Positions 3,966 to 35,870 of a stretch of 36,094 nucleotides of DNA are shown here, piece after piece. Each line of letters starts with the position of its first letter. Positions within the stretch are counted from its first letter, which is position 1. Both the position numbers and the translations under genes were made by a program. This DNA is from a virus. The DNA lies in IMG/VR virus record IMGVR_UViG_3300043431_000103, positions 1 through 36,094 of that record. One strand, 5' to 3'. Below the pieces are notes generated by a model. That model did not search any database. It was not told the origin of the DNA and worked only from the letters and a program-made list of their open reading frames with translations.

Positions 3966-4136
3966 ATGATGACATTAGAAGAAGTAATCCAGAGATTAGC
4001 GCCAATGAACTTAGCCAAAGTTGCTAAAGAAACCAATCTTCCTTATGTGACGGTTTGGAAAATATCAAGTTCACGCCATAAAAATGTGCCTTATTCTGCG
4101 GTCAAAGCCATTAGTGATTATTTGGAATCTCTATGA
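3966..4136 (+). CDS. Small helix-turn-helix regulator, 56 aa
   Basis: A 56-residue protein, first gene of the rightward operon. The segment NLAKVAKETNLPYVTVWKIS fits a helix-turn-helix: an A.......N.......W pattern, with residues PYVTVWKIS as the recognition helix. It is followed by VPYSAVKAISDYLES, the usual dimerisation helix of Cro-like phage proteins. GAGGG lies about ten bases upstream of the first of two ATGs. The stop overlaps the primase start (ATGA). Its place beside a divergent operator suggests a Cro- or repressor-like switch. The target site is inferred, not shown. Confidence 0.7.
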   Translation: MMTLEEVIQRLAPMNLAKVAKETNLPYVTVWKISSSRHKNVPYSAVKAISDYLESL

Positions 4137-6016
4137 TTTACGAGTTACAAGAAGCGATCAAATCAGTAGGATTTGAACCGCCTGAACATATAGTTGCTGG
4201 TAAGGTTCATCGGTTTTCAACTAATGGCAAGAGATCCGACAAATCAGGTTGGGTGTTGTTGTTTTCTGATGGTGAAGGTGCAGCTTTTGGATGCTGGCGA
4301 ACAGGTGAAGTTCACAATTGGTTTGCTAACCGACTGTCACAAGCTGATCCTAATGAACAAGAGCGGATGAAGCGTGAGTTTGAGAAAGCCAAAGCTAAAG
4401 CCAAGCAGGAATTGGAAGACTCTTATCGTTTAGCGGCTACTGAAGCCAAAGCCATTTATGATACAGCTCGTCCTGCACTGGAGCATGATTACCTATCATT
4501 GAAAGGTATTCGTCCTAACATGGCGAGGATATTTGGTGGCAAGCTTATTTTGCCTATTTATGATGCGCTTGGAAACATTCAGTCTATTCAATCAATCTTC
4601 AGTGACGGCACAAAGCGTTTCCATGCAGGTGGTAAGATGCAAGGTGGTCATTGTTGGATTGGCGACCCTAAGAATTCAGATACCATTCTAATAGCCGAAG
4701 GATTCGCCACCGCTGACTCTTTGGCACAAGCAACAGGTTATGCAGTCTGTATCGCGTTCAACGCTGGCAATCTTAAACCCGTTGCAGACATGGTGTATGC
4801 AGAACATGGTGGCAAGCGATTATTAATTTGTGCTGACAACGACAAACATGGTGCTGGCGCAGACAAAGCTATTGCCACGGGTTATGAATACATTATTTGT
4901 CCTGTTGATGGTGACTTTAACGACATGGCTTTAGCCTCAGGCTTGGAGTCGGTAAAAAACGCCATTGATGGTGTTGCACAGCCTGAATCTTTTTTGGTGA
5001 ATGTTGAAGACATAATGAAGTCAGTCACAAAGCCAGACTGGATCATTAAAGGCATATTAGAGCGCAACAGTTCGAACTTATTATTTGGCGAACCTGGTGC
5101 TGGCAAATCCTTATTCGCATTAGACTGGGCTTTCTGTATCGGCACAGGTCGTTCATGGCATGGTCATCTTGTAAAAGAACCCATGTCAGTGGTTTATATT
5201 GCTGGTGAAGGTCATCGTGGTTTAGCGATGCGTATGCAAGCTTTGTCGCAAAAGTATGACGATAAGCCAAAAAACATCTTCTTTTCTCGAAAGTCTGTCG
5301 ACATGATTTCGGACGTACAAGTAGAAGTCATCGCCAAGATTGTAAAAGAAACCTGCGCTAACCCTGCTGTTGTATTCATTGATACTTTGCATCGCAACAT
5401 GGTTGGCGATGAAAACTCGTCTGAAGACATCGCCAAATACTTTAAGTCAATTGAACACCTTCAAAAACAACTGGGCTGTGCCATTGTTACCGTTCACCAT
5501 AGTGGTCATGGTGACAAAACTCGCGCTCGTGGTTCTTCGTCAATAAAAGCCGGTGTTGACGCTGAATTCTGTGTTTCAAAAGAAGGCAAATCAGCCGTTT
5601 TTGCCTGCACCAAATCGAAAGACTTTTCAGCAGGCAGCGACATGCGTTTTGGTATTTTAGAAGTCTCATTAGAAGGCCCAACCTTTTATGACGATGACGA
5701 AGACAAGCAAGTCACCTCGGTCTACCTCGACTACCTCGGTGTAGAAAAAACCGAACCTGAACTACAACAAAACCACGCTATTGTTCTTGATCTTATCCGT
5801 CAATCCATCACTGAAGCTGGAACCTCGGGGGCGGGGAAGACAATCAGAGGCGAACTTGAAACGGTTGTCACAAAAGACATCGTTAAGAGCTATGTTTTTG
5901 AAGTATTTACCGATAAGAATCGCTGGCGTAAATTTGACGCTTCTATAAATTACCTTATGAAACAATCACTTATATTTGTTGATGGTGATTATATTTGGAC
6001 TACCTCACCTCAGTAA
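4133..6016 (+). CDS. Toprim primase / RepA-like replicative helicase fusion
   Basis: 627 residues. The N-terminal part (1-85) includes GWVLLFSDGEGAAFGCWRTGE, seen in phage and plasmid primase-helicases, followed by a charged helical spacer. The Toprim-like domain spans about 140-280, with ILIAEGFATADS (Glu189) and LLICADND (the DxD-type metal site). The C-terminal ATPase is of the RepA/DnaB-like AAA_25 kind: Walker A GEPGAGKS (319-326), Walker B VVFIDTLH (Asp417), and a VTVHHSGHGDKTRARGSSSI segment. The protein would prime and unwind DNA at the phage origin. Start overlaps the HTH gene stop, so translation is coupled. The C-terminal 100 residues look like a winged-helix DNA-binding tail. Confidence 0.9.
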   Translation: MIYELQEAIKSVGFEPPEHIVAGKVHRFSTNGKRSDKSGWVLLFSDGEGAAFGCWRTGEVHNWFANRLSQADPNEQERMKREFEKAKAKAKQELEDSYRLAATEAKAIYDTARPALEHDYLSLKGIRPNMARIFGGKLILPIYDALGNIQSIQSIFSDGTKRFHAGGKMQGGHCWIGDPKNSDTILIAEGFATADSLAQATGYAVCIAFNAGNLKPVADMVYAEHGGKRLLICADNDKHGAGADKAIATGYEYIICPVDGDFNDMALASGLESVKNAIDGVAQPESFLVNVEDIMKSVTKPDWIIKGILERNSSNLLFGEPGAGKSLFALDWAFCIGTGRSWHGHLVKEPMSVVYIAGEGHRGLAMRMQALSQKYDDKPKNIFFSRKSVDMISDVQVEVIAKIVKETCANPAVVFIDTLHRNMVGDENSSEDIAKYFKSIEHLQKQLGCAIVTVHHSGHGDKTRARGSSSIKAGVDAEFCVSKEGKSAVFACTKSKDFSAGSDMRFGILEVSLEGPTFYDDDEDKQVTSVYLDYLGVEKTEPELQQNHAIVLDLIRQSITEAGTSGAGKTIRGELETVVTKDIVKSYVFEVFTDKNRWRKFDASINYLMKQSLIFVDGDYIWTTSPQ

Positions 6017-6147
6017 AATATGGCGAGGTAGTATAGAGGTGAACCTCTGAGGTAGCGACCTTCACAATCACCTCGCCTCACCTCTCCCCCCTATAAAGGG
6101 GAGAGGGGGGCGAGGTAGAGGTAGAGGTGGTGTGTGAGTTGAGTGTT
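6017..6147 (+). other. Non-coding GC-rich hairpin region after the primase-helicase
   Basis: An extended imperfect stem: ACCTCGCC (6070-6077) plus CCTCTCCCC (6081-6089) pair with GGGGAGAGG (6098-6106) plus GGCGAGGT (6109-6116), giving 17 base pairs around the loop CCTATAAA. There is no T-run after it, so it is not an ordinary intrinsic terminator. AGAGGTGAACCTCT just upstream is another short hairpin, and GGCGAGGTAG occurs on both sides. It could be a transcript-stabilising or pausing structure, or a single-strand initiation site. Confidence 0.6.
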
Positions 6148-6156
6148 TGCTATAAT
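6148..6156 (+). promoter_or_regulatory. Extended -10 promoter (TGCTATAAT) ahead of the small RNA
   Basis: TGCTATAAT is a perfect extended -10 element. No good -35 hexamer sits 16-18 bp upstream, which extended -10 promoters can tolerate. Predicted transcription start is near 6162-6164, at the first stem of the structured RNA described next. Confidence 0.65.
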
Positions 6157-6157
6157 G

Positions 6158-6271
6158 ATTTCAGGCCGTAGGAAGCCTGAAATAAAGAGAGATTAAACAA
6201 AACCGTTGTCTATTGCTGAAGCCTAAATCTTTCAGGCTAATTCCTACCAGCAATAGAAAGCGGTTTTTTTT
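6158..6271 (+). ncRNA. Structured small RNA candidate with loop-bulge pseudoknot and intrinsic terminator
   Basis: Stem 1 is ATTTCAGGC/GCCTGAAAT (6158-6166/6175-6183) with loop CGTAGGAA. Stem 2 is AAAACCG/CGGTTTT (6199-6205/6261-6267), then CTATTGCTG/CAGCAATAG (6210-6218/6248-6256), then AGCCT/AGGCT (6220-6224/6234-6238), and ends in eight T residues (6264-6271). The 3' bulge of stem 2 (TTCCTAC, 6241-6247) is exactly complementary to loop 1 (GTAGGAA, 6168-6174), giving a 7-bp pseudoknot. A consensus extended -10 precedes it and the next gene starts after the T-run, so it looks like an independent transcript of about 105-110 nt. No family is recognised. It could instead be a leader or attenuator for the AP2 gene, since stem 1 and stem 2 segments can also pair in alternative ways. 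Confidence 0.65.
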
Positions 6272-6284
6272 ATGGGTGTTAAAA

Positions 6285-11458: not shown

Positions 11459-13885
11459 ATGAGCAGTCTTTCTTTCGACCACAACGAAGTTGCGCTTGCG
11501 CGGGAATTTAGTCGGCAAAATTTCTATTTCTTCACGCGCTGGATGTTCCATGCCACGACCAATATCCCGTGGGACAAAGGTGGTCATCACGAAGTCATGG
11601 CAAAAGCACTAGAGCGAGTAGTAAGTGGCGATTGTAAAAGGCTGATTATTAACATTCCGCCCCGTTATGGAAAAACCCAAATGGCGGTTGTATCGTTTAT
11701 CGCATGGTGCATGGGTAGGTATCCTGATTCTGAATTTATTCATACGTCTTATTCGTCCACATTAGCGGGTGAAAACTCGTATAAGGTGCGTGAATGGGTT
11801 ACTCATGCTGAATATCAGGCGATATTTCCTGATGTGGTGTTGAAGTCTGATTCAAAGTCAAAAGACCATTGGAAAACAACCTCTGGTGGGGTTTTATATT
11901 CTGCGGGTACGGGTGGTACGTTGACTGGATACGGTGCTGGTAAAAAGCGTAAAGAGTTTGGCGGGTGTTTTCCGTATGAGCAGTTGGTTGAAACCGAGAT
12001 TGGTGCAATAAGGATTGGTGAGATTGTCGATAAGGAATTAAATGTAAAGGTCTGGTCGTACAATGAAGAAACCCAACAATGTGAATTGCGAGAAATCACC
12101 ACCTACTTCGAGAACCCTGCTAATGAAATTCTCGAAGTGATGATGGATGATGGTACAAGTTTTAGATGTACACCGAACCATAAGATTTTGACATCATCCG
12201 GTTGGATTACTGCGGAACAGCTTGCGGATATACTTAATCTGGAAAATAGAAAGTCCAGTTTCATCCATAACCTGTTGTCTGGTTTTGGTAGGATCAATCG
12301 CTATGTTGATAGTTTCTTGAGAGTGCTTAGGTTTGGAATTCCAAACTGGATCAGGCAGACTTTCAGTTATGCTTCGCCAAGTTTCGCGGAGCTTGATTTG
12401 GCGTATAACGCCAGCGCCAATACCGTACCGTTTAGCCAAGTCAGTAGTACTCTCACTGCTCGTAAAGATTTCTACGACTTTGGCTTTAGTCAATTTAGCA
12501 CCGGGACGTTTTTCGAGCAAAGGGAAAGTGCCGTGTCTAATGGCATCTTGCATATTTTCGGATTTGGTTCCCCACGCAAGATTGTCAAGTCTATTATTGG
12601 TGGAATTACCATCAAGATGCCGAGCTTCGTTCTTTTCGGGTCTAGCGCCAACAAATTCTTCCAAAACCATGTGATGAATATATTTAAGCGTCACTTTCCC
12701 ATTAATAGACAAATTAACTCGAAAATACCCTTTACCATCATCACTGGGCTTCAAAAAACGCTCTGGAGAAGTTCTTTTAACTCTACCAAAGCTGGAAATA
12801 GCGTAAAGTTCATTGGTGTTGGCAATAAAACGCCAGTTTTCGTTCGTCATGTTGGTCATGTTGATACTACCTTTTGTTTAGAAGTTGAGACTAATCATAA
12901 CTTTATTTTATCACAAAGCGGAGCAATTGTTTCAAACTGTATCATAATTGATGATCCCCATAAGGCTGACGAAGCTAGGTCTGACATTATCAGGAATTCA
13001 GTTCTGGAGTGGTTTAGGACTACGTTGGAATCGCGTAAGAATAACGGGTCTGATACGCCAATTATTGTGATTATGCAAAGGTTACATGAGCAGGATTTAG
13101 CAGGATGGTTGCTTGATGGTGGTAATGGTGAGTCGTGGGAGCATATTAATCTGTCAGCGATACAACCTGATGGCTCGGCATTGTGGCCTTCTACGCACAC
13201 GCTGGAAGAACTACGGATTATTGAGAACTCGAATCCGTATGTGTTTGCAGGACAGTATCTACAGCGCCCTGCCCCACCGGAAGGGGGGTTGTTTAAGCCT
13301 GAGAACCTAAAGGTAATTGATGCGTTACCTGCTGAGAAAATACAGTGGGTGCGAGCATGGGACTTGGCTTCATCAATTAAGGGTGACTGGACGGTCGGTG
13401 CAAAGCTAGGCAGACTGCCTGATGGTAGATTAATTATTGGTGATATTGTCCGCATACGGGTTGAGGCGCATGAACGGGATAAGGTGATGATTAATGTGGC
13501 GACACAAGATGGCTATAATGTGACTGTGTCGATACCACAAGACCCAGGTCAAGCAGGTAAAACACAGGTAGCGTACTTAACGAAAGCGTTACAAGGGTTT
13601 AAGGTGAAGTCGAGTCTGGAGTCTGGGGATAAGTACACAAGGGCTGAACCGTTCGCTTCGCAAGTCAATATTGGGAATGTGATGATGAGTCGTGGTGCGT
13701 GGAACCAGAATTTGATACATGAAATGTCCATGTTCCCGAATGGTAAGAATGATGACCAGATCGATGCGCTGTCTAGGGCATTTGCTGAGATTATCGGAAT
13801 GAATAAAAGGATGAGTATTAGTAAAAGTGCTTTGAATAAAGCAAAAAGGTATAATTACGCGCAACATGGCACGAGGTTTGCATAA
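11459..13885 (+). CDS. Terminase large subunit, interrupted by an intein
   Basis: The precursor is 808 residues: N-extein 1-169, intein 170-493, C-extein 494-808, giving a 484-residue spliced motor of normal length. The ATPase has Walker A PPRYGKT (67-73, Lys72). Walker B is CIIIDDP (494-500), beginning with Cys+1 of the C-extein. The coupling motif is MQRLHEQDLAG. The C-terminal RNase H-like nuclease has VRAWDLASS, SIPQDPGQAGKTQ and NDDQIDALSRAF. The exteins join as EFGG-CIIIDDPHKADEA, a seamless fit to uninterrupted relatives. The protein cuts concatemers and pumps DNA into the prohead. Without splicing the ATPase site is split, so activity depends on the intein. Confidence 0.95.
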   Translation: MSSLSFDHNEVALAREFSRQNFYFFTRWMFHATTNIPWDKGGHHEVMAKALERVVSGDCKRLIINIPPRYGKTQMAVVSFIAWCMGRYPDSEFIHTSYSSTLAGENSYKVREWVTHAEYQAIFPDVVLKSDSKSKDHWKTTSGGVLYSAGTGGTLTGYGAGKKRKEFGGCFPYEQLVETEIGAIRIGEIVDKELNVKVWSYNEETQQCELREITTYFENPANEILEVMMDDGTSFRCTPNHKILTSSGWITAEQLADILNLENRKSSFIHNLLSGFGRINRYVDSFLRVLRFGIPNWIRQTFSYASPSFAELDLAYNASANTVPFSQVSSTLTARKDFYDFGFSQFSTGTFFEQRESAVSNGILHIFGFGSPRKIVKSIIGGITIKMPSFVLFGSSANKFFQNHVMNIFKRHFPINRQINSKIPFTIITGLQKTLWRSSFNSTKAGNSVKFIGVGNKTPVFVRHVGHVDTTFCLEVETNHNFILSQSGAIVSNCIIIDDPHKADEARSDIIRNSVLEWFRTTLESRKNNGSDTPIIVIMQRLHEQDLAGWLLDGGNGESWEHINLSAIQPDGSALWPSTHTLEELRIIENSNPYVFAGQYLQRPAPPEGGLFKPENLKVIDALPAEKIQWVRAWDLASSIKGDWTVGAKLGRLPDGRLIIGDIVRIRVEAHERDKVMINVATQDGYNVTVSIPQDPGQAGKTQVAYLTKALQGFKVKSSLESGDKYTRAEPFASQVNIGNVMMSRGAWNQNLIHEMSMFPNGKNDDQIDALSRAFAEIIGMNKRMSISKSALNKAKRYNYAQHGTRFA
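12194..12859 (-). CDS. NUMOD4/HNH homing endonuclease encoded antisense inside the intein
   Basis: 221 residues. The NUMOD4 start is ENWRFIANTNELYAISSFGR (7-26). The HNH_3 domain has IHHMVLEEF (His62-63), RHLDGNSTNNRLDNLAWGT (His81, the Asn cluster and the N.L.W.T signature) and SENMQDAIRHG. A C-terminal HTH follows: AKLTKAKVVEIF...TTDLAKRYGIGAGVIRQIKL. This is the standard architecture of phage homing endonucleases. Start ATG 12859 has AAAGGTAG upstream; ATG 12850 is an alternative. All 16 Leu codons avoid TTA/CTA and all 16 Ser codons avoid TCA, as needed to keep the terminase frame open on the other strand. It presumably cuts intein-less terminase genes, spreading the intein. Confidence 0.9.
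   Translation of the reverse strand: MTNMTNENWRFIANTNELYAISSFGRVKRTSPERFLKPSDDGKGYFRVNLSINGKVTLKYIHHMVLEEFVGARPEKNEARHLDGNSTNNRLDNLAWGTKSENMQDAIRHGTFPLLEKRPGAKLTKAKVVEIFTSSESTTDLAKRYGIGAGVIRQIKLRETWRSITESLPDPVWNSKPKHSQETINIAIDPTKTRQQVMDETGLSIFQIKYIRKLFRSNPTG
12907..12935 (-). promoter_or_regulatory. Antisense promoter candidate for the HNH gene, inside the intein
   Basis: Minus strand: TTGAAA (12935-12930), 17 bp, GATAAA (12912-12907). Start would be near 12900, about 40 bases ahead of the HNH ATG. The entire promoter lies within the coding sequence for the intein's C-terminal block, so it would move with the element. Confidence 0.4.
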
Positions 13886-20600: not shown

Positions 20601-20936
20601 ATGAGCAACAATACTGTTTTGAATCCTGGGTTTGGTGGTGACACTATATCCACAGAAGATTTGGGCGCAAGCAAAATACAAAGAGTAAAGATTGCATTAG
20701 GCACATCAGGCGTTGATGGCGGCAATATTAGCGGCTCTAATCCATTGCCTATCACCAATGGGCCTATTATTGGCGGCAATCAAATTAATATCAATGCGGC
20801 TACCAATCAATCTTGGAACTGGACTGGCGGAGTGTTGCAAAATATTCAATACACAATCGGTGCTAATGTTTATCAAAAAACCTTTACTTACACATCAGGA
20901 AACTTAACCAATATCACTTGGAGCCAAATTGCATGA
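20601..20936 (+). CDS. Hypothetical virion protein, 111 aa
   Basis: Pattern SNNTVLNPGFGGDTISTEDLGASKIQRVKIALGTSGVDGGNISGSNPLPI in the first half (D.I.T.D.G..KIQRVK...G..G......PLP), often found in phage structural proteins that sit at fibre bases. The second half is repetitive and Asn/Thr-rich. It overlaps the fibre gene as ATGA, so this protein may be a partner or mount for the fibre encoded next. Role uncertain. Confidence 0.6.
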   Translation: MSNNTVLNPGFGGDTISTEDLGASKIQRVKIALGTSGVDGGNISGSNPLPITNGPIIGGNQININAATNQSWNWTGGVLQNIQYTIGANVYQKTFTYTSGNLTNITWSQIA

Positions 20937-23173
20937 GTAATATTGAAAGCTGGTGGGAAGGTTATCAGGTATTTAAAGGACAAGTATCAACAGGCGGAAC
21001 ATCTGGATACTCTGGATATTCAGGTCAAAGCGGTTTTTCAGGTTACTCTGGATTTTCTGGTAGTGGTATTTCAGGCTATTCTGGGGAAAGCGGCTATTCC
21101 GGTGCTAATGGTGTTTCTGGCATCTCAGGTTTTTCAGGCTACTCTGGGAGTGGTATTTCAGGTTACTCTGGAAGATCTGGTTTTTCAGGCGCTAATGGCG
21201 TTTCAGGTACTTCAGGTTATTCTGGATATTCAGGAAGTGGTATCTCAGGGTACTCTGGATTTTCAGGATATTCAGGCGCTGTTGGCGCAAGCATTGCTAT
21301 TAAAGGCACTGTGGCTACAGTGGCTAATTTACCATCAAGCGGTAATTTAAAAAATGATGCCTATGTTGTAACTGCTGATAGTCATTTATATGTTTGGACT
21401 GGATCGGCATGGAGTGATGCTGGACAATTTACAGGCACTTCAGGTTTTTCAGGTTTTTCTGGTTTTAGCGGATACTCTGGAAAATCTGGTTTTTCTGGAT
21501 ATTCTGGGATCAATGGTACGAATGGTGCATCAGGATTTTCTGGTGCTGCCGGTGCTTCTGGTTTTTCTGGGTATTCAGGTATTAATGGCTTGTCTGGCGT
21601 ATCAGGATTTTCTGGTCAAGTAGGTGGATCAGGTATCTCTGGTTATTCTGGCTTTTCTGGGTATTCAGGATCAGGGGTTTCAGGATACTCTGGAAAATCT
21701 GGTTTTTCTGGTATTTCAGGTTTTTCTGGGTATTCAGGCGCTTCCGCAAGCAGTTTATTTGTCAGTATTAAAGATTTTGGAGCGGTAGGTAATGGAACCA
21801 CAAATGATACTACTGCAATACAAAACGCCTTAAACAGCTTAGGTACAGCAGGTGGTTCAGTTTATGTGCCTAATAACTACAGATGCTTGGTCAGCGGTAG
21901 CTTAACTATCCCTAAAAATGTGTCTCTAGTTGGGCCACATTTATCGCCAGGCATGGCTGATTATTCGCCAACATCATTTAATACAATGGGTGGTGCAATA
22001 TTATTAAGCTCAGCAGCCACAATTAACTTGAGTGGATCATCGGCTATCTCTGGATTGTTGATTTATCGTGCTGGAATGACATTTCCTATTTCAAATACTT
22101 CAGGTTATGCAGGCACGGCTATTACAGGCAGTTACTCCGACTGTACGTTTGTGGAAAATTGCATCATCATTGGTTTTAATCAAGCTTGTCGAATCAGCAA
22201 TTCTGAACAATTACGATTCAACAATCTCTGGCTAGACAACATTAATGGCATTGAAATTTCTGGCGCACCTGATGTTTGTTATATCTCAAACTGTCATGCT
22301 TGGCCTTTTGCAAGTAGAGGAGGAACCGACAATGGCACAAGATCAGGCACTGCTTTTTATTACCATGATGTTGCAGATTGGATAAAAACAACCAATTGTT
22401 TTTCTTATGGATATGCACATGGATTTGAAATTAATAACGTCAATAGCGCACAGTTTATTGGATGCGGAGCAGATAACTTATACACTACTGCGCCTGGATT
22501 ACCAGGATCAATAGGATTTAACGTACTTGGCACATCTACAGGTACTGTGTTCTCTAATTGCCAAGCTGCCGCCCAAGATTATGCGGGGTTTCATTTTTCA
22601 GCATCTTCTGTATTTAATGAAGTCGTAGGGTGTAGTGCATGGGGGAATTATTCTGCAATTATTGTTAATCAAGGCAATGTCGATATTAACAGTTGTCTGT
22701 TTAATGGTAATGGATTAGCTAATAGCAGAGGCATAGCAATAGGCAATGCTGCTTCAATTGTTAATGTTGATAATTGCAACTCAAATGACATGGTATTGGC
22801 TGATATTGAAGCTTCCGTATCAACAACATTGTTAAGTGTTGCCAATACCAACTCATTAAGATCGTCTGTTCCCGTTTTGTATAACGGAAATCTTAATGCG
22901 CGTTCAATTGCTTCAGCTTCTACTATTACCATTCCTACGTCTGTTTTGGTTTGCAATGTAACAGGCACAACAACAATAAATAACGTATTGAATGGTTGGG
23001 CTGGGCGGCAAATTACATTAATTTTTAATGGAGCATTAACTGTTGTTAATAGCGCAACTGCAAATACAGGTGTTCGATTAAAAGGCAGTACAAACTTTTC
23101 GGTCAGTGCAGGAGTTAGTTTAACTCTAGTCCACAATGGTACACAATGGTTTGAAATAGGCAGAAACGCATAA
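20933..23173 (+). CDS. Collagen-like fibre / tailspike with beta-helix domain
   Basis: 746 residues; the start at 20933 (MSNIESWWEGYQ) overlaps the previous stop. Domains: an anchor (1-22); a first collagen-like block of G-Y/F/I-S triplets (about 23-118); a small domain (about 120-168: GTVATVANLPSSGNLKNDAY, LYVWTGSAWSD) like those in fibre proteins; a second triplet block (about 169-274); and a pectate-lyase-like right-handed beta helix (from about 278, KDFGAVGNGTTNDTTAIQNALN...GGSVYVPNN) that runs to about residue 660. The C-terminal part ends NTGVRLKGSTNFSVSAGVSLTLVHNGTQWFEIG. It likely recognises or cuts surface polysaccharide. The gene lies between connector and tail terminator genes, an unusual place. 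Confidence 0.85.
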   Translation: MSNIESWWEGYQVFKGQVSTGGTSGYSGYSGQSGFSGYSGFSGSGISGYSGESGYSGANGVSGISGFSGYSGSGISGYSGRSGFSGANGVSGTSGYSGYSGSGISGYSGFSGYSGAVGASIAIKGTVATVANLPSSGNLKNDAYVVTADSHLYVWTGSAWSDAGQFTGTSGFSGFSGFSGYSGKSGFSGYSGINGTNGASGFSGAAGASGFSGYSGINGLSGVSGFSGQVGGSGISGYSGFSGYSGSGVSGYSGKSGFSGISGFSGYSGASASSLFVSIKDFGAVGNGTTNDTTAIQNALNSLGTAGGSVYVPNNYRCLVSGSLTIPKNVSLVGPHLSPGMADYSPTSFNTMGGAILLSSAATINLSGSSAISGLLIYRAGMTFPISNTSGYAGTAITGSYSDCTFVENCIIIGFNQACRISNSEQLRFNNLWLDNINGIEISGAPDVCYISNCHAWPFASRGGTDNGTRSGTAFYYHDVADWIKTTNCFSYGYAHGFEINNVNSAQFIGCGADNLYTTAPGLPGSIGFNVLGTSTGTVFSNCQAAAQDYAGFHFSASSVFNEVVGCSAWGNYSAIIVNQGNVDINSCLFNGNGLANSRGIAIGNAASIVNVDNCNSNDMVLADIEASVSTTLLSVANTNSLRSSVPVLYNGNLNARSIASASTITIPTSVLVCNVTGTTTINNVLNGWAGRQITLIFNGALTVVNSATANTGVRLKGSTNFSVSAGVSLTLVHNGTQWFEIGRNA
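20998..21752 (+). repeat. Degenerate 9-bp Gly-X-Ser triplet repeat region (two blocks)
   Basis: Blocks about 20998-21285 and 21436-21752, made of GGA/GGT-TA(or TT)-T/C-TCN-type codons for G-(Y/F/I/V)-S, interspersed with GAN/GKS triplets. Alternative frames are open by periodicity alone. Similar repeats recur at 34218-34695 and 35185-35415. Confidence 0.85.
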
Positions 23174-33759: not shown

Positions 33760-34128
33760 ATGGCTCAGTTTCTTCAGGATATACGCCAAGGCGATGAATA
33801 CATCATCAAAATTAATTTTGGCACTACAAACAACATTACTGGTTTTGAGTTCTGGCTAACTATTAAATCAGATTTTGATTTACCTGATAGCGAAGCGGTT
33901 TTACAGTTTACGACAACTGCCGGAGATTATGTAGGTGATGATCCAGTTCATGGAATTGTGTATTTAGTTGTGCCATCAGCAATAACAGGTGCGGCTGAGG
34001 CTGGACATTACTTTTATGACTTGCAAGTTAAAACACCAACGGGTGAGATTACAACCATAGTGCCTCCAGTTGATAGTTATAAAGACAGAATTCTTATTGC
34101 ACCTGAAGTAACAAAGGCAACATCATGA
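33760..34128 (+). CDS. Hypothetical structural protein, Ig/BppU-N-like
   Basis: 122 residues: DIRQGDEYIIKINFGTTNNITGFEFWLTIKSDFDLPDSEAVLQFTTTAGD, then HGIVYLVVPSAITGAAEAGHYFYDLQVKTPTGEITTIVPP. The strand pattern (RGD.....V.......I.GY.F..T.K............. G.....L....T.....G.Y.YDI......G...T) is found in proteins mounted on baseplates or as fibre bases, similar to BppU N-terminal domains. It is adjacent to and overlaps the collagen-like fibre by four bases and so may be its attachment protein. Confidence 0.7.
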   Translation: MAQFLQDIRQGDEYIIKINFGTTNNITGFEFWLTIKSDFDLPDSEAVLQFTTTAGDYVGDDPVHGIVYLVVPSAITGAAEAGHYFYDLQVKTPTGEITTIVPPVDSYKDRILIAPEVTKATS

Positions 34129-35870
34129 CACAAACTACTATCGTTGAAAACTGCGACAGCGTAATAGAAATTACTAGCGGTATTGATACTCAGATTGACA
34201 TTAGTTGGTCTGCCGGATTGCCAGGGCCAAGAGGCATATCAGGCGATTCTGGATTTAGTGGATACTCTGGTTATTCAGGTATCTCTGGTTATTCAGGTAT
34301 CTCTGGGTATTCAGGTTACTCAGGTATCTCTGGTTATTCTGGCGCTTCCGGTTTGTCAGGATTTTCTGGGTTTTCTGGAATAAGCGGTTATAGCGGTTAT
34401 AGCGGCTATAGTGGCTCAGGTATCAGTGGGTATTCAGGTTATTCTGGGGTTCAAGGCATACAAGGCATATCAGGTTACAGTGGTCGCTCAGGTTATTCAG
34501 GCGCACAAGGTGCAAGTGGTGTTTCCGGCTATAGCGGCTATTCTGGATCAGGCTTGTCTGGATATAGCGGTTATAGTGGCTCTGGCATATCTGGTTATTC
34601 AGGTTACTCTGGTGCTGTTGGTGCTTCTGGTTTATCTGGATACTCTGGTTTCTCAGGCTATAGTGGCGCACAAGGCGCAAGTGGTGTTGGTGGTGCTTTA
34701 GGTTATTGGGGTTCGTTTTGGGATACCACGGATCAAGTTGCTGCCGCTGCCAATACGCCTTATTCAGTTACTTTAAATCAGTATGATGCTGATAATCTAG
34801 GAATTACGGTTGTATCTGGCAGCAGGATTACGTTTGCTAATACGGGCATTTACAGTCTGACTTTTTCTATTCAGTTTGCAAACCCAGATAGTCAGATTCA
34901 CGATGTCAATGTGTGGCTCCGTAAGAATGATTCTGGCTCAACTGGTGACGTACCAGATTCAGATACAAAATTAAGTTTACAGCAAAAGCATGGCTCAACA
35001 GATGGTTATGGTCTAATGACTGTGAACTATATGATGAAGCTCAATGCTGGCGACTTTATTGAGATGATTTGGTCGTCAGACCATGCTGGTATATCTATTC
35101 AATCAGTTCCTGCTGGTACTGCACCAGTATCACCATCAATACCTGGTGTTATTTTTACTGCTCAACAAGTAATGAATACTCAGTCTGGATTTAGTGGATT
35201 TTCTGGTATCTCTGGATTTAGTGGCATTAGCGGGTTTTCAGGCTACAGCGGCTCTGGTGTTTCTGGCTGGTCTGGCATATCAGGTTATTCTGGTGCTGCT
35301 GGCCCACAAGGAATTAGTGGATATTCAGGTTATAGTGGCTATGTTGGTATAAGCGGTTATTCAGGTTATTCAGGTGCTGTAGGTCAGTCTGGATTTAGTG
35401 GTTATTCTGGGGCAACAGGCCCTACAACATATCCCACTTTAGGTGTGGCTGTATCATCAGGCACAGCATGGGGGACATCGCTAACAGCCCCGACTGGCGC
35501 TTTGGTAGGCACATCCGACACACAAACATTAACTGGCAAAACCGTTACCAACGTGGTGTTTGATGGCAACTACACGGAGGAGGTGTACGCCATTGTTGAT
35601 GGTGCATCGGTTGACTTAAATCCTGCTAATGGCACGGTGCAGACTTGGACACTTGGCGCAAGCCGTAGTCCTACTGCTACTGGCTTTCAATCAGGTCAAT
35701 CAATTACGTTGATGATTGATGACGGTTCAGCCTACACGATTACTTGGCCTAGTGTGACTTGGAAAACTAACGCTGGTGTTGCACCAACGCTAAACTTGAC
35801 AGGATACACAATCATTCAGTTGTGGAAAGTTGGGTCAGTACTGTATGGCGCTCGTGTAGGAGACGCATAA
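34125..35870 (+). CDS. Collagen-like fibre with C1q/TNF-like jelly-roll domain
   Basis: 581 residues. The short N-terminal mount (about 1-31) is followed by a first G-X-S triplet block (about 32-191), starting with a true collagen-type GLPGPRG. Next is a jelly-roll domain (about 192-350; LGYWGSFWDTTDQVAAAANT, GITVVSGSRITFANTGIYSL, VWLRKNDSG, LNAGDFIEMIWSS), then a second triplet block (about 354-431). The C-terminal fibre part (TLGVAVSSGTAWGTSLTAPTG...LTGKTVTN...YTEEVYAI...ITLMIDDGSAYTITWPSVTWKT) matches the tips of many phage fibres. It shares the triplet repeats with the fibre at 20933, suggesting a shared origin or recombination between them. Confidence 0.85.
   Translation: MTQTTIVENCDSVIEITSGIDTQIDISWSAGLPGPRGISGDSGFSGYSGYSGISGYSGISGYSGYSGISGYSGASGLSGFSGFSGISGYSGYSGYSGSGISGYSGYSGVQGIQGISGYSGRSGYSGAQGASGVSGYSGYSGSGLSGYSGYSGSGISGYSGYSGAVGASGLSGYSGFSGYSGAQGASGVGGALGYWGSFWDTTDQVAAAANTPYSVTLNQYDADNLGITVVSGSRITFANTGIYSLTFSIQFANPDSQIHDVNVWLRKNDSGSTGDVPDSDTKLSLQQKHGSTDGYGLMTVNYMMKLNAGDFIEMIWSSDHAGISIQSVPAGTAPVSPSIPGVIFTAQQVMNTQSGFSGFSGISGFSGISGFSGYSGSGVSGWSGISGYSGAAGPQGISGYSGYSGYVGISGYSGYSGAVGQSGFSGYSGATGPTTYPTLGVAVSSGTAWGTSLTAPTGALVGTSDTQTLTGKTVTNVVFDGNYTEEVYAIVDGASVDLNPANGTVQTWTLGASRSPTATGFQSGQSITLMIDDGSAYTITWPSVTWKTNAGVAPTLNLTGYTIIQLWKVGSVLYGARVGDA

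Follow-up and report, generated by a model that had tools for sequence, protein, structure and literature searches.

The CI RNA of phage P4 and the c4 RNAs of phages P1 and P7 are leader-derived RNAs with paired segments, which end transcription before downstream genes, including ant. In the AbiF/RCd22 system of Clostridioides difficile phage phi027, a 100- to 130-nt RNA is accompanied by a mapped read-through transcript (PMC12373285). RNA structure is also found just 5′ of phage homing endonuclease ORFs (I-TevI, segB, mobE, and seg43(25)), where it hides the ribosome-binding site (RBS) on read-through transcripts or consists of a single hairpin (PMC2988022). The lambdoid moron-site sRNAs of the AgvB/EcOnc family are short phage RNA genes tied to moron sites; they are Hfq-bound anti-sRNAs of 51 to 60 nt that occur as convergent pairs beside the moron (PMC4104026).

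Here, we analyzed a 36,094-base IMG/VR virus record (the window), in which the initial annotation had singled out a noncoding promoter-to-terminator RNA with a loop-bulge pseudoknot. As in AbiF/RCd22 (PMC12373285) and the type III toxin-antitoxin systems (ToxIN, CptIN, and TenpIN), the locus has its own promoter, a structured RNA of about 100 nt, a rho-independent terminator, and an RBS; it is likewise phage borne, with an ORF presumably reached by read-through, and ToxI RNA is also pseudoknotted. Comparison with homologous sequences supported the annotation and the conservation of the pseudoknot. On the same comparison, we regard the RNA as a real, newly recognized family with no counterpart in Rfam 15, in which a terminator is enclosed by two covarying pseudoknots. 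No prior description was recognized in the literature searched; most subscription-journal papers and a 2017 list of 224 candidate RNAs lay outside the comparison, and thus priority is not established.

Layout and predicted fold of the window RNA

The RNA unit, of which the window holds one copy of about 108 nt, sits between a primase-helicase gene (4133–6016) and a small ORF; its features are collected in Table 1. The extended −10 element, both stems, and the U8 terminator described in the initial annotation were all found in place, and the predicted fold of 6158–6271 (−39.9 kcal/mol, z = −5.66) was more stable than every one of 200 shuffled sequences (0/200 equally stable). Judged by the −10 spacing, transcription probably begins near 6163, which could leave a 5′ hairpin of just 4 bp (6163–6166/6175–6178); the fold of 6163–6271 was calculated at −32.5 kcal/mol (z = −3.88). 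Beyond the loop-bulge pseudoknot (PK1), which pairs at 7/7 positions in the window, we noted a second pseudoknot (PK2) between linker and apical loop, which pairs at 8/8, and an ORF whose start lies 13 nt past the U-run.

Table 1. Positions of the promoter, RNA elements, and cargo ORF in the window
Feature	Position	Strand	Basis or remark
Extended −10 promoter element, TGC-TATAAT	6148–6156	+	Sequence; no good −35 by eye at 16 to 18 bp
Hairpin 1, 8-nt loop	6158–6183 (arms 6158–6166/6175–6183)	+	9 bp in DNA; predicted fold
PK1 5′ side (A), GUAGGAA in loop 1	6168–6174	+	Paired 7/7 in 34/34 distinct RNAs, 12 sequence types
PK2 5′ side (B), GAGAGAUU in linker	6187–6194	+	At least 7/8 paired in 34/34
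Core motif UUAAACAAA, between linker and terminator stem	6193–6201	+	In IMG/VR members, partly by scan construction
Stem 2, intrinsic terminator hairpin	6199–6271	+	Arms 6199–6218/6248–6267, apical hairpin 6220–6238, U8 6264–6271
PK2 3′ side (B′), AAUCUUUC in apical loop	6226–6233	+	Pairs with B
PK1 3′ side (A′), UUCCUAC, immediately 5′ of terminator 3′ arm	6241–6247	+	Pairs with A
13-nt gap with Shine-Dalgarno-like GGGUG (6274–6278)	6272–6284	+	Sequence; ATGGGTAAAAT-like gap in most members
Cargo ORF, 80 aa	6285–6527	+	Putative AP2-like DNA-binding remnant of HNH-AP2 endonuclease

From 5′ to 3′, loop 1 (A) is followed by the linker (B), the 5′ arm of the terminator (C), the apical loop (B′), the bulge (A′), and the 3′ arm of the terminator (C′); in the window, A′ adjoins C′ with 0 nt between them. 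This order corresponds to a predicted H-type pseudoknot in which the terminator forms the second helix, plus an extra linker-loop helix, B:B′. An alternative 15-bp pairing of the 3′ side of stem 1 and its loop with the 3′ side of the apical hairpin and the bulge was rejected as specific to the window, being lost, by eye, in the homologous contig L013.

Elsewhere in the window, the large-terminase ORF (11459–13885) carries, by eye, a long intein-like insert, inside which an antisense ORF (12194–12859, minus strand) looks like a NUMOD/HNH endonuclease. A pentapeptide-repeat protein with many near-identical ANLTEANLYG units is encoded at 1669–2502 on the minus strand (Pfam E = 2.6e-67), and tail-region ORFs at 20918–23173 and 34125–35870 have long GYSGYSG collagen-like repeats.

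Family members and covariation of both pseudoknots

Through the primase, we reached three contigs (L013, L014, and L015) that have the RNA at the same place, their copies being identical to one another and unlike that of the window. In the window-L013 alignment, four pairs were altered on both sides, one in hairpin 1 and three among the outer pairs of stem 2. R1, a covariance model built from the window and L013 RNAs, revealed divergent copies in L085, whose hairpin 1 stem is wholly different from the window's, and in L081, where loop GUGAGAG and bulge CUCUCAC stand instead of GUAGGAA and UUCCUAC. The family was gathered by two IMG/VR motif scans and by R1 searches, and it comprises at least 67 sites that represent 34 distinct RNAs.

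The first scan (at least 119 loci among the matches listed) required TATAAT, and the second (73 stretches) did not. Since the scan patterns demand TTAAACAAA, part of the apparent constancy of the core follows from the search itself; the motif differs in L411 and in both isolated phages described below. PK2 was never a selection criterion. PK1 was a filter in two screening steps, and its scores also ordered one candidate table, after which the sources of some R1 searches were chosen; other searches took all of the at least 119 first-scan loci unselected. Five of the 69 match lines behind the alignment of 67 sites were added by hand, and L395 and L410 fell out through parsing. L082, overlooked by R1, shows the poorest PK2 pairing, with 5 contiguous pairs.

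Eight of the 73 stretches from the second scan (L348, L349, L362, L364, L371, L386, L387, and L409) were judged to be chance matches. A loop-bulge pattern gave 56 matches, of which only L013, L014, and L015 were real, with L043 and L065 sitting in tRNA arrays, and another pattern yielded real matches only in the same three contigs and L158 (the L085 contig). An 18-mer match in a Verrucomicrobiales MAG (L016), located at a contig end, diverges at once and was dismissed as chance, and minus-strand model matches over the RNA (e.g., window 6300–6194), due to the near-palindromic hairpin, were not counted as copies. The exact 24-mer of hairpin 1 was absent from IMG/VR, BLASTN of the window RNA against phages and plasmids returned nothing of weight, and the L240 and L352 RNAs gave only matches of about 24 to 30 nt in BLASTN against phages.

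Segment A, a 7-mer aligned on the GU within or next to loop 1, takes 12 different forms among the 34 distinct RNAs and pairs with A′ at 7/7 positions (G-U allowed) in all of them. The complementarity of loop GTAGGAA and bulge TTCCTAC, originally read from the window, was thus borne out. Segment B, which is the linker end and takes in the first UU of the core, pairs with B′ at 7/8 positions or more in 34/34 RNAs, with 18 sequence types. Both-side changes, counted as sequences with related RNAs included and not as independent events, were found at PK1 positions 3 to 7 in 18, 19, 23, 8, and 16 cells, respectively (five of seven positions), and at PK2 positions 1 and 3 to 6 in 18, 15, 10, 15, and 16 cells, respectively; PK2 position 2 is invariant, and position 8 is paired in just 12/34. 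These changes in both pseudoknots across the 34 RNAs agree with the earlier claim that the tertiary contact is more than chance, and the homologues keep both the stems and the complementarity while the letters change.

In fixed positional windows, a PK1 score of at least 14 was reached by the RNA's own pairing in 34/34 cases versus 30% of pairings across RNA types, and a PK2 score of at least 13 was reached in 33/34 versus 22%. Among 74 sites with common short motifs, both pseudoknots were present in 35/36 family sites versus 2/38 other sites; one of the latter two, L395, is a family member omitted from the key list, which makes the control figure 1/37. A −10-like hexamer occupies the promoter position in 34/34 distinct members (TATAAT in 31, TGn in 20), and the family members tabulated have a U7–U9 tail.

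A pseudoknot-free model, R2, was built from alignment A8 (41 rows), which left out the window and both isolates and included L013; one antisense match, L013 (minus), remained among the rows and so entered R2. The model matched the window RNA over its full length (114.8 bits, E = 1.6e-24, L013 having been an A8 row), as well as 47/47 member records, 0/21 primase relatives without the RNA, and 2/18 public phage records. Salicola phage CGphi29 was matched at HQ634153.1 14265–14379 (E = 9e-9) and Idiomarinaceae phage 1N2-2 at KJ847052.1 8278–8388 on the minus strand (E = 1e-5); the hosts of both are Gammaproteobacteria. CGphi29 has GUAGCAG/CUGCUAC as PK1 and GGCAGGAU/AUCUUGCC, with one G-U, as PK2, and 1N2-2 has GUGAGAA/UUCUCAC and UUAGAGAA/UUCUCUAA; both isolates share the fold, and their pseudoknots occupy the corresponding positions within it. 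As the model is free of pseudoknots, the two isolates provide independent confirmation of the predicted pairings.

Rfam 15 at curated thresholds gave no match in the window, in ten family loci, or over the RNA in L013 to L015, in line with the initial annotation, which had recognized no known family. Weak matches to Rfam microRNA precursors fell far under the cut-off and were discarded as reflecting the long hairpin only.

Insertion as a unit and exchange of cargo ORFs

The minus-strand L332 copy is a 514- to 524-nt insert and the L230 copy a 421- to 461-nt insert, each compared with seven loci lacking the insert; both inserts replace 21 to 61 nt and are flanked on either side by a gene of the opposite strand. 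At L085, about 388 nt, from the −10 hexamer to the cargo stop, are absent from L086 and L078. As befits a moron, the unit has its own promoter (by consensus only) and, for L332, L230, and L085, lies between genes that are neighbors in relatives. Many members are located 100 to 440 nt past a primase-helicase gene, and the L332, L230, and 1N2-2 copies are located between structural genes (in 1N2-2 antisense, between the major capsid and tail-connector genes); the L280 copy follows an unrelated gene. Two to three copies per record occur in L332's contig, G001, G008, and G012, and every copy that could be read precedes an ORF of its own. We discarded orthogonality as a reading of the unlike PK1 sequences in copies of one genome, for which chance alone gives about 0.49.

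Following the primase gene, short repeats cluster around a palindrome in the window (6003–6130) and in L005, L008, L072, L093, and L102, with a repeat unit that varies by lineage (GAGGT, GGTAT, GTCC, ATCC, CATACATA, or CCCACC). The repeats and palindrome may be a replication origin, with the repeats changing together with the helicase-primase. Structured-looking stretches also precede HNH genes in Alteromonas phage PB15 (L419 307–373) and Pseudoalteromonas phage AL (L418, about 300–400), the gene order at these HNH genes being like that of 1N2-2.

An ORF starts 9 to 19 nt past the U-run in 30/32 distinct members versus 7/37 control terminators from the same loci. Over 72 instances, the chosen start was at 11 to 19 nt in 59 (13 or 14 nt in 51) and at 0 to 2 nt in 7; three instances had no ORF, and three (L313, L378, and L385) had their sole start at 29 nt. 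The cargo ORFs form 15 BLASTP clusters, and they are exchanged between RNA types: the MDLRD family (18 instances) follows three RNA types, and five cargo clusters follow RNA type GUUCGCG. Phages reuse the RNA before homing endonucleases of the HNH or HNH-AP2 type (L280, L383, and 1N2-2 ORF 11) and the GIY-YIG type (L319), AntA-P63C and Rha antirepressor-type regulators (L366, L352, and L369), an MT-A70 methylase (L360), and many ORFs of no assigned function. With regard to a riboswitch, no common metabolic gene was seen among the cargo.

The cargo of the window matched the HNH endonuclease family PHROG 99 (E = 3.5e-13, profile positions 206–258 of 383) and clustered in BLASTP with the HNH-AP2 cargo of L280, L383, L361, and L369, with a weak Pfam AP2 match; we assign it as a predicted AP2-only relative of that cluster. 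By eye, the CGphi29 cargo, SLPG_00018 (L416 1596–2525), begins like an HNH protein, and it matched Transposase_20 weakly. Its N-terminus lacks what we take to be the features of IS110 catalytic domains, and hence we make no claim of a guide RNA. A recurrent cargo of 90 to 108 aa (L085, L229, L238, L240, L356, and L405) has a W-NFKL...K-NFWL-YN-like motif; no Pfam model scored above the cut-off for this family, and no PHROGs match was found for the three members tested.

A putative attenuator leader and other readings

On the observed structure, covariation, position, insertion as a unit, and cargo exchange, we propose with moderate confidence that the RNA is the promoter-plus-attenuator leader of an exchangeable phage moron, whose pseudoknots set read-through into the cargo. 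One transcription unit would comprise the promoter, the structured leader of about 108 nt ending in the intrinsic terminator, the RBS, and one cargo ORF. Most transcripts would stop at the U-run and give a short stable RNA, and a minority would read through, so that the cargo is expressed. A:A′ and B:B′ could form with C′ still inside RNA polymerase, and the two-pseudoknot fold would govern C:C′ pairing and with it the level of read-through, with a sign that could be either way. We infer some leakage at the terminator, gating of the terminator by the pseudoknots, and the action of a signal (a protein, a ligand, the polymerase state, or a phage factor) on the leader. The lack of a conserved seed together with an interchangeable ORF at a fixed distance points to a leader acting in cis. 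The terminator hairpin is very stable, and thus the cargo is perhaps expressed at trace level or not at all; cargo near the primase could also be transcribed from upstream. How morons stay quiet or switch on becomes a question that can be tested at the bench in two isolated phages, and the RNA is a marker for phage accessory genes in metagenomes.

It is doubtful, although worth weighing, that the terminated leader is itself the product and acts in trans, either as an Hfq-type sRNA or, like P4 CI or P1 c4, by pairing with other leader copies. The promoter-terminator unit with a U7–U9 tail and an A-rich single strand (U8 and an A-rich strand being the Hfq-relevant features visible in the window sequence) and the two self-complementary segment pairs changing in concert are consistent with such a role, and E. 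coli prophages are known to carry sRNA genes at moron sites (PMC4104026). However, no seed is conserved among the 12 PK1 and 18 PK2 types of the 34 RNAs, and the unlike PK1 sequences of same-genome copies would arise by chance with a probability of about 0.49. In a 7-mer search of the window, GTAGGAA occurred once on the plus strand and TTCCTAC only at 6241, 10157, and 22932, with none seen at an ORF start. The pairing with host or phage targets suggested at the outset was not supported. We think it improbable that the covarying hypervariable segments constitute an RNA recognition code, by which the terminated leader would act in trans on nascent leaders of the same type, so that each cassette would sense the number of cassettes of its kind in the cell and close or open its cargo to match; if true, exchangeable phage genes would possess an RNA-based means of incompatibility or superinfection sensing.

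Still harder to sustain is a type III toxin-antitoxin or AbiF-like system, in which the pseudoknotted RNA would bind and restrain the protein encoded downstream. The layout of promoter, RNA, terminator, RBS, and ORF is that of AbiF/RCd22 (PMC12373285), but the diversity of the cargo (15 BLAST clusters) and its exchange between RNA types argue against neutralization of a protein by the RNA. Moreover, ToxN, CptN, TenpN, and Abi_2 models were absent among the cargo tested (Pfam, PHROGs, and PADLOC), and the RNA is a single unit without tandem repeats, with one sense-strand model match per site.

A primer or origin regulator beside the primase gene would fit the many members located 100 to 440 nt past the primase-helicase gene and beside the repeat-rich palindrome, but we consider such a replication RNA very unlikely, as other copies lie between structural genes (L332, L230, and 1N2-2) or after unrelated genes (L280), and 21/21 primase relatives without the RNA were negative over whole records, with the palindrome kept in those read. 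Chance complementarity within a plain promoter and terminator, which the view of a single sequence leaves standing, is scarcely credible and is refuted, as far as the comparative data reach, by covariation, own-versus-cross pairing scores, the R2 search, and the comparison of motif-sharing sites.

The putative attenuator leader shares with the P4 CI and c4 systems the presence of antirepressors among its cargo, but the partner sites of those RNAs lie outside the RNA, whereas here both partners lie within one terminated unit. The int-alpA RNA of Rfam (RF02996) has a sub-threshold match in PB15 upstream of the HNH gene (32 bits versus a cut-off of 35.8); it does not match the window RNA or the family, nor does R2 match the int-alpA-like stretch of PB15. 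Some of the cargo here are HNH and GIY-YIG enzymes, as at the homing endonuclease hairpins, yet unlike those described in PMC2988022, the structure is a terminator with two pseudoknots, the RBS lies outside it, and the cargo extends beyond endonucleases. Compared with AgvB/EcOnc (PMC4104026), the RNA here would be the moron's own 5′ leader. Finally, whereas AbiF (PMC12373285) and the type III toxin-antitoxin systems combine one toxin family with repeated RNA motifs, the present family has a single RNA unit with another fold, placed before many unrelated cargo genes.
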